A stretch of 64,000 nucleotides of DNA from an uncultured Clostridia bacterium (GTDB taxonomy: Bacteria; Bacillota; Clostridia; Oscillospirales; Oscillospiraceae): NCBI GenBank assembly GCA_945948535.1, contig CAMFBN010000003.1, positions 1 to 64,000 on the forward strand. The letters are read 5' to 3'. Below, one piece after another: positions 33,540 through 43,050 of this stretch (the stretch's first letter is position 1; every line of letters starts with the position of its first letter). A program made the translations under genes and the position numbers. A model generated the notes under the pieces. The model worked only from the letters and a program-made list of their open reading frames with translations. It was not told where the DNA came from and did no database searches.

Positions 33540-33543
33540 AATG

Positions 33544-33578
33544 GGCGCAGGCAGAAAATCCTCTGTCTGCGCCTTTCT
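33544..33578 (+). terminator. Intrinsic terminator
   Basis: GGCGCAGGCAGA pairs with TCTGTCTGCGCC (one mismatch) and is followed by TTTCTTATTTT. Confidence 0.75.
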
Positions 33579-33585
33579 TATTTTC

Positions 33586-33648
33586 GACACCGTTCTACAA
33601 AATCCGTTGTCAAATAATGGCGGATTTTGCAGAGCGGTGTCTTTTTTG
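33586..33648 (+). terminator. Long hairpin with T run ahead of the integrative-element module
   Basis: A 21-bp stem (GACACCG...CAAAATCCG against CGGATTTTG...CGGTGTC) with one G-U pair and one mismatch closes a 14-nt loop and ends in six T. Length and quality exceed those of usual terminators, so a regulatory or element-end role is possible. Confidence 0.6.
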
Positions 33649-34241: not shown

Positions 34242-34640
34242 TCAGAAGGCCTCTGAAACTGGATAAGTAGTGAGGGGCATTTTTCTGAAGAATCCGGAAA
34301 CCTCTCGCGAACCTTATCAAGTGAATATCCAGAAACGGAAAAACATCCGCTGGTGTGCCCTGCAAAGGGCAAGCGACATTGGAGAAACGCGCGATGACCC
34401 ACCTGTGCAGAGGAATCTGCATCAATGCGGCAAGGAAGGTGGTTAGCGGGTCCGTTCGTCCAGAAAGCAGATCGTGGCCGATCTGTCTTGCGATGACAGC
34501 ACCAGCGTTGGTACTCCTGCCCAGCCACAGCTACACGCAATGGGGGCAGCTCGGAGAGATCCTCGGAGGGGTGAGATTCCCGTGACGCGCAGCCAAGCGC
34601 GGTTTCCGTTTCTGCCCTAGCCTGGGGAAGTAGTGTCAGG
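34242..34640 (+). ncRNA. Candidate large structured RNA between sigma-like and recombinase genes
   Basis: No frame here codes for a plausible protein, yet pairing is dense. Seen stems: TCAGA/TCTGA; GATAAG/CTTATC; TGCCCT-gcaa-AGGGCA and TGCAGA-ggaa-TCTGCA, both with GNRA loops; CAGATCG/CGATCTG; CTGCCC/GGGCAG; CGCGC/GCGCG; and a 9-bp long-range helix CAGAAACGG (34330-34338) with CCGTTTCTG (34606-34614). A terminator follows at 34681. I recall similar sequence in clostridial element modules but cannot name an RNA family. Confidence 0.6.
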
Positions 34641-34680
34641 AATACAGGCGATTTATTTCAAAGTCAAATTTCAGAAGGGA

Positions 34681-34723
34681 GCCGCCCTGCTGCGCCATCA
34701 TGGAAGCGGCAGGGCGGCTTTTC
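34681..34723 (+). terminator. Intrinsic terminator behind the structured RNA region
   Basis: GCCGCCCTGC and GCAGGGCGGC are exact complements around an 18-nt loop, followed by TTTTC. Confidence 0.8.
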
Positions 34724-34738
34724 ATATAGGAGAACAAA

Positions 34739-34882
34739 ATGAATACCAATGTGAATTACTGCAGTGTCATCATCCTGCTGCGCAAACTTGTGACATCAGG
34801 ACACTGCACGAAAAAAGAAGCCAGCAGAATAGCCGCCCGGATTGCGAAACAGACCGGGGCGGATATCATTCTTTCGATATAA
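34739..34882 (+). CDS. Small helical protein (SHOCT-like) of the element module
   Basis: 47 residues: 'IILLRKLVTSGHCTKKEASRI' then 'AARIAKQTGADIILSI'. The L-x-x-G-x-x-x-x-E-E/A-x pattern recalls SHOCT domains. It is too short for the ORF track but has AGGAGAACAAA before ATG, and similar short proteins precede serine recombinases in related elements. Function unknown. Confidence 0.55.
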   Translation: MNTNVNYCSVIILLRKLVTSGHCTKKEASRIAARIAKQTGADIILSI

Positions 34883-34955: not shown

Positions 34956-36530
34956 ATGGCAACGGCAAGGGATAACCTGGCAAGAAAACAGATTTTCATA
35001 CCGGCAACGCAACCGGAGGAAAAAATCGTCCTTCGGGTTGCTGCCTACTGCCGTGTCAGTTCTGACTCAGAAGATCAGCTGAATAGCTTTGCCGCCCAGA
35101 ATACCCACTATAACAATCTCATCAAATCCCACGACAAGTGGGAATTGGTGGATATCTACGCTGACGAAGGTATCACCGGTACATCAGCGAAAAAACGCGG
35201 AGACTTCCAGCGGATGCTGGAGGACTGCCACAAGGGAAAGATCGATAAAATCCTCGTGAAATCCATCTCCCGGTTCGCCAGAAATACAAAGGACTGTCTG
35301 GAGGCGGTTCGGGAACTGCGGACATTGGGGATCAGCATTTTCTTCGAGGAGCATAACATCGATACCAGGATGGTATCCAGCGAGATGCTGACCTCCGTGA
35401 TTGCCGCATGCGCCCAGGCAGAGAGTGAGTCCATTTCCCAGAACATGAAATGGAGCATCCAGAAGAAGATGCGCAATGGTACCTATGTCGCAACCCATGT
35501 GCCATTTGGATTCCGCAGAGAGGATGGACAGCTCGTTATTGATGAAAATGAAGCAGTCTATGTCCGCTACCTGTTTTCCAGATACCTGGCGGGTGCAAAC
35601 GCCCATGAGATAGCGGAGGAATTCCTGCAAAGAAGCGAAAACGAACCTGTTCTGTCCAGGCGGAAATGGACGCACCGAACGGTTATTGAGATGCTGATTA
35701 ATGAGAAGTATACAGGCGATGTTCTGCATCAGAAAACGTATATGACCGAAACACTGCCCCGGCAGTGCGTGCGTAATCATGGACAGATGGATCAGTATTA
35801 TGTGAGCAGCGTCCACCCTGCCATCATTGACCGGTATTCTTTTCAGGCGGCTCAGGAACTGCTCCAGAAAAGGAAAAAGGATCATCCCCCTCACAGGCAA
35901 AGGGCTTCTGTTTTCATTGGAACGGCAGTCTGTGCAAAGTGCGGCGGAGGATTCCGCAGCTGTGAATCAAGCGGAAAGCGTTACTGTGTGTGCCGCAGGC
36001 ATGCGCACAATGCAGATGCCTGTGATATGCCGCCAATTCCCGAGGATGCCATCATGCAGGCATTCCTTCGGCTTTACGATAACCTCAAGCATGGGGAAAT
36101 CTTGCAGTTCACGCAGAAGACACTGTCCACGATCCGCAGCCGTAAAATGCTGTGGAGTACAGACATTGTGGAATTGAATCAGAGAATTTCAGATCTATCC
36201 AGTCAGAGTCACAAATTGTCCTCGCTGAACCGGCGGGGCATGGTTGACCCTGATATTTTTATAGCTAAGAGCAATCAGCTGGCAGAGCAGCTTCGCAGCG
36301 CCAAGCAGCAGAAGGAACAATTCATGCGGCAGGAGGATCGCAGTATCCTCGACAGTACCGAGCAGCTACTGGAAACCATGGAGGCCGGACCGGAAGTGCT
36401 GGAAGCCTTCGATGAGGAGCTGTTCTGCGAGTTGATTGACAAAATCATTGTGGAGAGCAATTTGAAAATCCGGTTTCGGCTGAAAAATGGGCTGGAGCTA
36501 CCGGAAACGATTGAAAGGACGGTGCGGTAA
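34956..36530 (+). CDS. Large serine recombinase
   Basis: 524 residues from ATG 34956 (GAGGAGGTG upstream). Resolvase domain with 'RVAAYCRVSSDSEDQLNSFAAQ' (catalytic Ser), 'GITGTSAKKRGDFQRMLEDC' and 'LVKSISRFARNTKDCLEAV'; recombinase DNA-binding domain near 'FGFRREDGQLVIDENEAVYVRYLFSRYL'; zinc ribbon 'CAKCGGGFRSCE...YCVCRRH'; coiled coil at the end. It would excise and integrate an element. All catalytic parts are intact. Confidence 0.92.
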   Translation: MATARDNLARKQIFIPATQPEEKIVLRVAAYCRVSSDSEDQLNSFAAQNTHYNNLIKSHDKWELVDIYADEGITGTSAKKRGDFQRMLEDCHKGKIDKILVKSISRFARNTKDCLEAVRELRTLGISIFFEEHNIDTRMVSSEMLTSVIAACAQAESESISQNMKWSIQKKMRNGTYVATHVPFGFRREDGQLVIDENEAVYVRYLFSRYLAGANAHEIAEEFLQRSENEPVLSRRKWTHRTVIEMLINEKYTGDVLHQKTYMTETLPRQCVRNHGQMDQYYVSSVHPAIIDRYSFQAAQELLQKRKKDHPPHRQRASVFIGTAVCAKCGGGFRSCESSGKRYCVCRRHAHNADACDMPPIPEDAIMQAFLRLYDNLKHGEILQFTQKTLSTIRSRKMLWSTDIVELNQRISDLSSQSHKLSSLNRRGMVDPDIFIAKSNQLAEQLRSAKQQKEQFMRQEDRSILDSTEQLLETMEAGPEVLEAFDEELFCELIDKIIVESNLKIRFRLKNGLELPETIERTVR

Positions 36531-37289
36531 GTGGGTTCCAATCGGGCGCTGCCATTCGGCTACAAAATGGAATTCGGCAGGATTGTGATCTTTCCCGAGG
36601 AAGCTGGCTGGGTTACATACCTGTTCGACCAGTATCTCCTGGGGGCTTCCTATAAGGGGCTGTCAGATGAGATGAACGGGTACTGTGTTCGCTATGACGG
36701 CGAGAGAACTTGGAACAAAAATATGGTGGCAAGAATTTTGCAGGATTGCCGGTATACCGATGACGGCGGATTCCCAAGGATTATTGATCCTGCTGTATTT
36801 CAGAGCGCTGAGGAAAAGCGCAGGAAAAAAGCCACTGCCCCGGAAAAAACAGAGGTACAGAAAATCCTTCGGCGCAAATGTGGCTGCCGAATCACAGCAC
36901 ACATGGAACATGAGGTTCTGTACCTGCTGAATCGCCTTGCCGCCCACCCAGAGCGGATATCAACGCCTAATCCCCCCAAATCCCCTCCCCCGCGGCTGAA
37001 AGCGTTGAAATCCGAACTGGAGGAGCTGATCAGCCAGCTCCCTGTGGACGAGGAGCGGGCTTGGGCGGTGATGCAGGAGGTAGCGGCGGCAATGTATGAA
37101 GCCATGGACCCTCGAGAATACGAAACCCAGCGTATGCGGCGGGTATTTCAAAAAGAGGAACCACGCTCCGAACTGGATGCCAAGCTCATCGACGCGAACA
37201 TATCCGCAGTCATGGTGGATAGCAATGGAAACGTTAAAATCCGTCTGAAAAACGATCAAACAATCGAAAGAGGTGAGAAAAGTGAGTGA
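36531..37289 (+). CDS. Recombinase accessory protein lacking the resolvase domain
   Basis: 252 residues from GTG 36531. 'LPFGYKMEFGRIVIFPEEAGWVTYLFDQYL' and 'RTWNKNMVARILQDCRYTDDGGFP' are the recombinase DNA-binding domain, and the rest is a Lys/Glu-rich coil. The N-terminal catalytic domain is absent and there is no serine nucleophile motif. Such partners occur beside complete serine recombinases in clostridial elements and may guide the synapse. It starts one base after the recombinase stop. Confidence 0.75.
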   Translation: MGSNRALPFGYKMEFGRIVIFPEEAGWVTYLFDQYLLGASYKGLSDEMNGYCVRYDGERTWNKNMVARILQDCRYTDDGGFPRIIDPAVFQSAEEKRRKKATAPEKTEVQKILRRKCGCRITAHMEHEVLYLLNRLAAHPERISTPNPPKSPPPRLKALKSELEELISQLPVDEERAWAVMQEVAAAMYEAMDPREYETQRMRRVFQKEEPRSELDAKLIDANISAVMVDSNGNVKIRLKNDQTIERGEKSE

Positions 37290-38078
37290 TGTATCGGTGT
37301 CCCTCTGCGGGCGGAAACGGAGGGCTGTTACGATGTGGTATCCGCTGCCGCCATGAACGGCTACTATGCTCCGGCGCAGATTACCCAGGAACGCTGCGGG
37401 GAAATTGATCAAATCAGCAACGCCGCGTTTTGGGCAGACTGCGAAACCAGTATCCGCAATACCCTCTCAGGCTTTGCGCAGCACGGAATCCAACTGCCTA
37501 CGCAGGAGTATGTGTTTACGGTTGTGCTGAGTGATCCCCAGAGCCCCATGACCGTAATGGCAGGCGACTATTGCGGCGATGGCGGGATTCCCGGTTATAT
37601 CATCGGTTCCATTGTACCCAATGAACGGTCGCTTTCCCTGCTGCCGGTGGCGCTGGCACATGAAACCAATCACAATGTCCGCTGGCAGTTCATGCAGTGG
37701 AGCAGCCAGATCACACTGGCGGATATGATCGTGTCGGAAGGTCTGGCGGAAACCTTTGCCGCAACCATGTTCGGTGAAGACAAGGTCGGCAAGTGGGTCA
37801 GAGAAACCGCGCCGGAAGTTCTGCACAAAACCGTCAAGCCGCTGATCCGGGCAAATCTGATGACCAGCGATTTTCAGGCGCTTTCTTCTTATCTCTATGG
37901 CGACGAGATCATGGCGCTACGGGGCGGTCAGCCCATCGGGATGCCTTGCTGCGGCGGCTACGCCTGCGGATACGCGCTGATTGGGCATTACCTGAAGAAA
38001 ACCGGTGCCTCCATCTACGAGGCGACCATCACGCCAACCGAGGAAATCCTGAAGCAGACGGAGGACTTCTGGAATTAA
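37290..38078 (+). CDS. DUF2268 putative Zn-dependent protease, N-terminally truncated
   Basis: The frame is open from 37290 and includes 'VPLRAETEGCYDVVSAAAMNG', homologous to the region about 45 residues into family members, so the front is missing. The core has 'LPVALAHETNHNVRWQFMQW' (HExxH-like H-E-T-N-H) and 'MIVSEGLAETFAATMFG', the zinc site. The GTG at 37335 is an available start. The front was probably lost in the junction with a third recombinase gene whose GTG lies at 37282. Confidence 0.7.
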   Translation, partial: CIGVPLRAETEGCYDVVSAAAMNGYYAPAQITQERCGEIDQISNAAFWADCETSIRNTLSGFAQHGIQLPTQEYVFTVVLSDPQSPMTVMAGDYCGDGGIPGYIIGSIVPNERSLSLLPVALAHETNHNVRWQFMQWSSQITLADMIVSEGLAETFAATMFGEDKVGKWVRETAPEVLHKTVKPLIRANLMTSDFQALSSYLYGDEIMALRGGQPIGMPCCGGYACGYALIGHYLKKTGASIYEATITPTEEILKQTEDFWN

Positions 38079-41790: not shown

Positions 41791-43050
41791 ATGGACAGAA
41801 AACAAAAGGTTAATCGGTTTCTTTTGTTATGGGCAGGAGAATTGGTGTCCTCCATCGGAAGCGGGCTGACCAGCTTCGGCCTTGGCGTGTACGTGTTCCG
41901 GCAGACAGGCAGCGCCGCGGATATGGCGTTGGTGAGCCTGCTGGCATTTCTTCCTACGCTGCTGCTCAGCGTTCCGGCAGGCGTGCTGGCTGACCGCTAT
42001 GACCGGCGGGGGCTGATGATGGTGGGAGACGGCTTTTCGGCTCTTGGAATCCTTTATATTTTCTTCTGTATGCAAAATGGTGGCGCGAGCCTGACGCAAA
42101 TCTGCATTGGCGTCACCATCAGCTCCGTTTTCTCCTCCCTGCTGGAGCCGGCCTATCGGGCCACCGTGTCGGACATTCTGGAACAGGAGGACTATTCCAG
42201 AGCCAGCGGTCTTGTCAGTCTGGCAGGCAGCGCCAGATACCTGATTTCGCCCCTTCTTGCGGGAATCCTGCTGACGGTTTCGGATATCCGGCTGCTGCTG
42301 ATTCTGGATATGGGAACCTTCTTTCTGACGGTGACCTGCACCGGTGTAGTGCGGCATGGGCTTGCATCGAAAGCGGCAGAGCATAAGGAAGCGTTTTTCA
42401 CGCTGCTGCAAGCGGGGTGGCAGGCGGTTACGGAGAAACGGGGCGTGCTGCTGCTGATTTTGTTATCCTCCGTCATGACCTGCTTCATGGGCGCATTTCA
42501 GATTCTGGCCGAGCCCATGATCCTTGCTTTTTCCGACAGCGCCACTTTGGGAATCTGCGAGACCATCTGCGCCAGCGGGATGTTGGTTTCCAGCCTGTTT
42601 CTGGGCATTCGGGGCATCCGCAAGGGTTATGTGAAAACCCTGTCTCTTTCTCTGATGCTTGCCGGCGCGGCGATGGTGGGCTTCGGGCTTCGGGAAAATC
42701 TGGTTTTGATCTGCGCGGCGGGTTTTGGCTTTTTCGCCATGCTGCCCTTTGCCAACAATTGCCTTGACTATCTGGTGCGCACCAACATTGCCGAGGAGCT
42801 GCAGGGCCGGGCCTGGGGGCTGATTGGCTTTCTGAGCCAGATCGGGTATGTGGTGGCCTATGGTCTTTCCGGCCTGCTGGCAGATGGAATGGGCAATCGG
42901 CTTCAAATCGGTGTTGGCCGGGGAACCGCCGCTGTCATCATGGCCTCCGGGGTGCTGCTTGCTGTCATAGCGCTGGGGATTTATCCCATCAAGGCAGTCC
43001 GGGAACTGGAGAAAGGAGTACATCATGAAAGCAAGAATCCTGTGGAATGA
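41791..43050 (+). CDS. MFS transporter (drug exporter type)
   Basis: The 419-residue protein has about 12 helices and the MFS motif A 'GVLADRYDRRGLMMVGDG' in the loop between helices 2 and 3. A second half begins near 'KRGVLLLILLSSVMTCF'. The shape fits the MFS_3-type (MefA-like) exporters. Control by the upstream TetR-type repressor fits a substrate-induced pump. It overlaps the next gene by 26 bases. Confidence 0.87.
   Translation: MDRKQKVNRFLLLWAGELVSSIGSGLTSFGLGVYVFRQTGSAADMALVSLLAFLPTLLLSVPAGVLADRYDRRGLMMVGDGFSALGILYIFFCMQNGGASLTQICIGVTISSVFSSLLEPAYRATVSDILEQEDYSRASGLVSLAGSARYLISPLLAGILLTVSDIRLLLILDMGTFFLTVTCTGVVRHGLASKAAEHKEAFFTLLQAGWQAVTEKRGVLLLILLSSVMTCFMGAFQILAEPMILAFSDSATLGICETICASGMLVSSLFLGIRGIRKGYVKTLSLSLMLAGAAMVGFGLRENLVLICAAGFGFFAMLPFANNCLDYLVRTNIAEELQGRAWGLIGFLSQIGYVVAYGLSGLLADGMGNRLQIGVGRGTAAVIMASGVLLAVIALGIYPIKAVRELEKGVHHESKNPVE

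Follow-up and report, generated by a model that had tools for sequence, protein, structure and literature searches.

The window, as we call the whole 64,000-nt stretch of DNA analyzed here, carries on its plus strand, in this order, a sigma-like gene, a noncoding RNA, a terminator, a 47-amino-acid (47-aa) open reading frame (ORF), and two recombinase ORFs (Table 1). The preliminary description of the stretch had the RNA flanked by the sigma-like gene on one side and the recombinase genes on the other, and Pfam agrees, finding Sigma70_r4_2 and Resolvase/Recombinase, respectively. A Pfam search with the 47-aa ORF gave no match. The homology of the window to a related locus, L146 (L numbers denote the loci compared), begins exactly at position 33543 and stops at 37290. 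A third serine recombinase, present in L146 and L149, is missing from the window from 37290 on, and the element seems, from this comparison, to be truncated or recombined there. A search of the window with pCF10 conjugation genes as queries gave no similar gene. Two consecutive terminator-like hairpins (33543 to 33574 and 33586 to 33641) lie 5' of the sigma-like gene.

Table 1. Features of the locus, in window coordinates
Feature	Position	Strand	Basis or remarks
Sigma-70 region-4-like gene, 140 aa	33799-34221	+	Pfam Sigma70_r4_2, E 1.3e-6; same gene 5' of the RNA in relatives
5' hairpin GAUAAGUAGUGAGGGG...CCUCUC, just past the sigma stop codon	34262-34306	+	Sequence and predicted fold
Degenerate boxA-like element ACCTTATCAAGTGAATA, 13/17 identical to ACCTTGAAAACTGAATA	34311-34327	+	Aligned with the boxA-like elements of relatives
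Long-range outer helix, 34330-34340 paired with 34604-34614, around most of the RNA	34330-34614	+	6/11 pairs with two-sided changes
5' domain, closed by P1 (34349-34356 with 34499-34506); hairpins 34400-34441 and 34467-34486	34341-34512	+	Covariance models R1 and R2
Rfam pemK core (RF02913)	34509-34585	+	52.5 bits (gathering score 34.8); model positions 5-61
Hairpin CGCGC...GCGCG	34586-34601	+	4/5 pairs with two-sided changes
3' hairpin GCCUG-GGGAAGUAGUGUCAGGAAUA-CAGGC, loop highly conserved	34620-34649	+	3/5 pairs two-sided; every cell paired
Strong intrinsic terminator (stem 34680-34719 plus U tract)	34680-34723	+	-36 kcal/mol, z -6.1; 6/10 pairs two-sided
47-aa ORF, probable ribosome-binding site, first gene past the terminator	34739-34882	+	Conserved in L002-L005 and L008
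Large serine recombinase	34956-36530	+	Pfam Resolvase, Recombinase, Zn_ribbon_recom
Shorter second recombinase-like ORF	36531-37289	+	Pfam Recombinase

Extent and fold of the RNA

The stretch past the sigma-like gene encodes a real, evolutionarily conserved folded RNA. A 449-nt query searched against 99 relatives recovered near-full-length homologues, 72 to 89% identical and mostly from the same genus, while phage and plasmid collections returned short partial matches only. The covariation check on homologues, proposed when the RNA was first noticed, came out in its favor. In an alignment of 11 relatives, 34 of the 74 pairs of the consensus fold show two-sided compensatory changes, compared with 12.2 (standard deviation, 2.4) in shuffles and 4 to 11 when the 3' partners were slid by 1 to 3 columns. 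The proportion of cells paired is 95.6% in the real alignment, versus 88.2% in shuffles and 38.6 to 47.7% in the slid registers. It is this covariation that takes the evidence beyond chance, because folding energy alone would not convince; the single-sequence value is only moderately unusual (z -2.55, with 1 of 100 shuffles as good).

The seven or more helices seen at the outset have become 13 RNA helices plus the terminator, all supported by the 11-relative alignment. The long-range helix said to close about 285 bases is real, with 11 pairs, and covariation is seen in this outer helix as well as in the inner P1, the 3' hairpin, and the stem of the terminator. Both GNRA hairpins are also there: CCCU-GCAA-AGGG (34358 to 34369) is specific to the window, its relatives having a 10-nt insertion at this place, and GCAGA-GGAA-UCUGC (34407 to 34420) has a GAAA or GCAA loop in some relatives. 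The boundaries first given, 34242 to 34640, needed extension: the RNA spans positions 34258 to 34649 or thereabouts (about 390 nt), and the terminator reaches 34723. The 5' hairpin (at 34265 to 34272) and the conserved 3' hairpin loop (at 34628 to 34635) share the sequence AAGTAGTG; L042/L073 and L047/L080 have AGTAGTG at the corresponding two sites.

Might the stretch encode a protein on its other strand? An antisense frame of 127 codons is open on the minus strand across the whole RNA (34258 to 34649), and canT of Tn916, described below, likewise has an antisense open frame, orf5. The absence of coding signal reported beforehand is borne out by the differences to relatives, which show no codon pattern in this frame. 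An antisense protein was rejected, since there is no third-position excess (13/8/7 versus L002) and the lengths of the indels are often not divisible by three.

The pemK core and the wider family

What kind of RNA is it? The preliminary description could not name a family and thought of an ornate RNA or a ribozyme. The large, ordered, noncoding RNA in a mobile-element module stands, through covariation; the unnamed ornate RNA or ribozyme gives way to homology with pemK and canT. An Rfam scan of the stretch found only pemK, above its gathering score at the 3' core, plus one chance match at an E value of up to 1. A ribozyme or a large Rfam RNA (GOLLD, ROOL, OLE, or a group I or II intron) was rejected for want of any covariance model match.

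Rfam models 61 positions for RF02913 and annotates it as cis-regulatory. The conserved RNA extends about 170 to 250 nt further upstream and about 60 nt further downstream than this motif, and comparison with relatives shows the orphan pemK motif to be one (the 3') end of a much larger RNA carried by mobile elements. Motifs above the cut-off are present in 120 of the 391 genomes sampled across the class Clostridia, roughly one in three, and 79 pemK loci were retrieved with their flanks for comparison. By phmmer, a sigma-like gene ends within about 650 nt upstream in about 30 of the 79, and a serine recombinase lies downstream in about 40. Other pemK loci stand ahead of ParA/ParB-like genes, or of PemK/MazF-like genes accompanied by Tn916-like integrases, names that come from reading the translations. 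L154, L156, and L160 have VirD4- or VirB4-like genes upstream. In L010, the gene after the RNA and terminator is PemK/MazF toxin-like, and it is presumably the association with such neighbors that gave the Rfam motif its name.

The domain 5' of the core ties these loci together. A covariance model of it, R1, was built from window positions 34341 to 34512 and ten window-type relatives only, with canT excluded. At E < 0.01 it matches 18 pemK loci and the Tn916-type canT, each match stopping where the pemK core begins, and it has no match at this threshold in the rRNA and pLS20 controls. With model R2, the product of one extension round, 45 of the 60 sources gave a match at E < 0.01, at the same position. 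In an alignment of 65 sequences, 97.9% of the P1 cells hold a pair, and a position can show as many as six kinds of pair; this alignment was fitted to the structure, so that its counts lean towards it, and its slid controls have only 31 to 46% of cells paired.

Relation to canT and the downstream terminator

In Tn916, an element that carries antibiotic resistance, canT is a 452-nt region between orf8, which lies beside the sigma-like orf7, and xis/int. It is a cis-acting processive antiterminator, effective on several unrelated terminators and working in cis only, and it is inactivated by a 162-nt deletion and also by S3, a replacement of ATA by TGC located 283 nt past the orf8 stop (PMC11658703). 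The canT of Tn925/pCF10, a Tn916-like element, contains pemK (55 bits, E 8e-9), and the R1 match to canT (E 2.9e-4) has the correct location and strand. Counted 283 nt from the orf8 stop, the S3 site falls at 41922 to 41920 of L133, exactly on bases 1 to 3 of the pemK core, a position that would explain the inactivity of S3. The inactive deletion takes out the entire core.

The two RNAs have in common the 5' domain, the pemK core, and a region of about 450 nt between sigma-like and recombination genes on the same strand, with orf7 as the counterpart of the sigma-like gene of the window. They differ in that Tn916 has an intact boxA-like element and AUAA, Xis and Int downstream, and no obvious terminator before xis, whereas in the window serine recombinases follow, a terminator adjoins the RNA, and there is an outer helix of 11 bp. 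That the window RNA is homologous to canT and pemK is close to certain. PMC11658703 has no mention of Rfam, and no link between pemK and canT was found in the literature searched.

Other loci bridge the two arrangements. In L148, the window RNA (about 73% identical) lies ahead of Tn916-type Xis and Int rather than serine recombinases, and in L157, Tn916-like genes and canT precede a large serine recombinase. Judging from such gene orders, modules are swapped around the RNA. This bears on the notion of a free-standing, trans-acting noncoding RNA that ends at the terminator and serves, for instance, as a recombinase cofactor or a polymerase decoy. The size and order of the RNA and the strong terminator behind it would suit such a molecule, but the same RNA is kept through a switch from serine to tyrosine recombinases, canT is active only in cis (PMC11658703), and just 19 nt separate the terminator stem from the ATG. 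We regard a trans-acting RNA as highly improbable.

The terminator past the RNA, also foreseen as strong, raises the question of how the recombinases are expressed. A scan for promoter-like sequences on the plus strand from the sigma gene to the next start codon, a weak test, found no match. Because the terminator stem ends 19 nt before the ATG and no plus-strand promoter matched, expression of the recombinases should need read-through. In relatives, the terminator directly precedes the first codon of nonhomologous genes (the 47-aa ORF, Xis, or, in L010, a PemK-like gene). At 78 loci, terminators in the 500 nt that follow the RNA show no clear excess in sense (21) over antisense (16), and on these counts a general enrichment right after the RNA was rejected.

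Could the RNA instead be a leader that controls this single adjacent terminator by attenuation, whether as a riboswitch or through a protein, and leaves later terminators unaffected? The terminator lies immediately 3' of the RNA and the Rfam class of pemK is cis-regulatory, both of which fit. In the predicted folds, however, nothing pairs alternatively with the terminator stem; the downstream genes (47-aa ORF, Xis, PemK-like, and ParA-like) are nonhomologous; and canT affects several unrelated terminators (PMC11658703). Attenuation is, in our estimate, improbable.

The boxA-like element and the proposed mechanism

Most members of the family carry on their 5' side a sequence such as TGTTCTTTGAAAACTGAATA, resembling the boxA of rRNA operons. 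The best upstream boxA-like match exceeds the 99th percentile of shuffles in 47 of 81 loci, and hairpins of the GTGAGGGG type lie 5' of the element in other loci. The rRNA of the window's own genome is absent from the assembly, and the rRNA spacers of genomes of the same order were therefore used for comparison. In those rRNA loci, matches of that strength occur only downstream of the 16S gene, at the place where the 16S-23S spacer should lie, and they read ACCTTGAAAACTGAATAA or nearly so. Antitermination of rRNA operons with boxA, NusB, and S10 is established (summarized in PMC12691694). That the family's boxA-like sequence is that of same-order rRNA spacers suggests an rRNA-type NusB/S10 complex, and the element would probably be bound by NusB and S10. 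The rRNA systems share the boxA-like sequence with the family and are without the large pemK-bearing fold; the window's own boxA is degenerate.

Indeed, the window and its closest relatives have an altered boxA-like core (ACCTTATCAAGTGAATA). They also depart from the family at the start of the pemK motif, where the trinucleotide altered in S3 is AUA at 62 and ACA at 12 (together 74) of the 77 distinct loci. Where the motif normally begins with AUAA (positions 1 to 4), the window reads GCGU (34505 to 34508); its relatives L010, L011, and L021 retain ACA or AUA in place of the window's GCG. This near-invariant 5' AUAA stands outside the RF02913 score cut-off.

Is the window RNA, then, a decayed and nonfunctional copy of the canT type in a truncated element? 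The loss of both AUAA and the boxA core would agree with this, as would the missing third recombinase. Compensatory changes persist, however, in relatives with the same loss, and the pemK core and the loop of the 3' hairpin are nearly invariant. Decay is on balance unlikely.

We consider it very probable that the window element has in this RNA its own counterpart of Tn916 canT: a processive antiterminator made of RNA that acts in cis and lets polymerase pass the terminators that follow. The conserved structure, the homology to canT and pemK, the order of genes, and the terminator beside the downstream gene are all observed; the activity itself is documented by experiment for Tn916 only (PMC11658703). 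The RNA would be transcribed after the sigma-like gene, fold on the nascent transcript, and act on the elongating RNA polymerase as canT does; in most family members, by analogy with rRNA operons, the partner would probably be NusB/S10 through boxA. The modified polymerase would then pass the terminator at 34680 to 34719 and later ones to reach the small gene and the recombinases, and, in a circular intermediate, read-through would extend to the other genes of the element.

Several points count against canT-like action: AUAA and the boxA core are lost, the element looks truncated, the terminator count is 21 versus 16, and the stem of the terminator is very long and could resist antitermination. 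Its score makes the RNA a member of the pemK family, and its structure and position make it a homologue of canT. Since one experimentally important sequence feature is missing, the claim made is that the RNA works like canT, not that it is an active canT; with GCGU for AUAA and a degenerate boxA, the activity or mechanism of the window subclade may differ. Processive antitermination is a likely function of the family; for the window copy, whose activity we infer, the certainty is somewhat lower. A further reading, which we put forward tentatively, sees in pemK the 3' core shared by a large family of RNA antiterminators: mobile elements would carry an rRNA-type boxA and with it rebuild a NusB/S10 complex of the rRNA type, and the window subclade would be a variant that does without boxA and AUAA, both of which it has lost.

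What would this mean for the field? (i) An orphan Rfam motif found in so many of the Clostridia sampled would gain a likely function. (ii) canT would be extended from one element to a widespread RNA family with varied recombinases. (iii) The secondary structure now has covariation behind it, and NusB/S10 at boxA is a candidate host factor, which makes the action of canT on RNA polymerase directly testable.

Other antitermination systems offer comparisons. EAR, of the eps operons of Bacillales, and put of HK022 are RNA-only processive antiterminators (as cited in PMC11658703), like the RNA proposed here, although the stretch has no Rfam match except pemK. On plasmid pLS20, conAn2 is likewise a large antitermination RNA of a Gram-positive conjugative element. 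It works with a protein, ConAn1. As a relative, conAn was rejected: the pLS20 stretch tested gave no pemK match and no significant match to R1 or R2. Lastly, the same genome as the window holds a second RNA of the pemK/canT type (L131, G000:C27, 1093 to 1156, minus strand), which has a good boxA-like sequence (ATCTTGAAAACTGAATA), AUAA, and a different small gene downstream.
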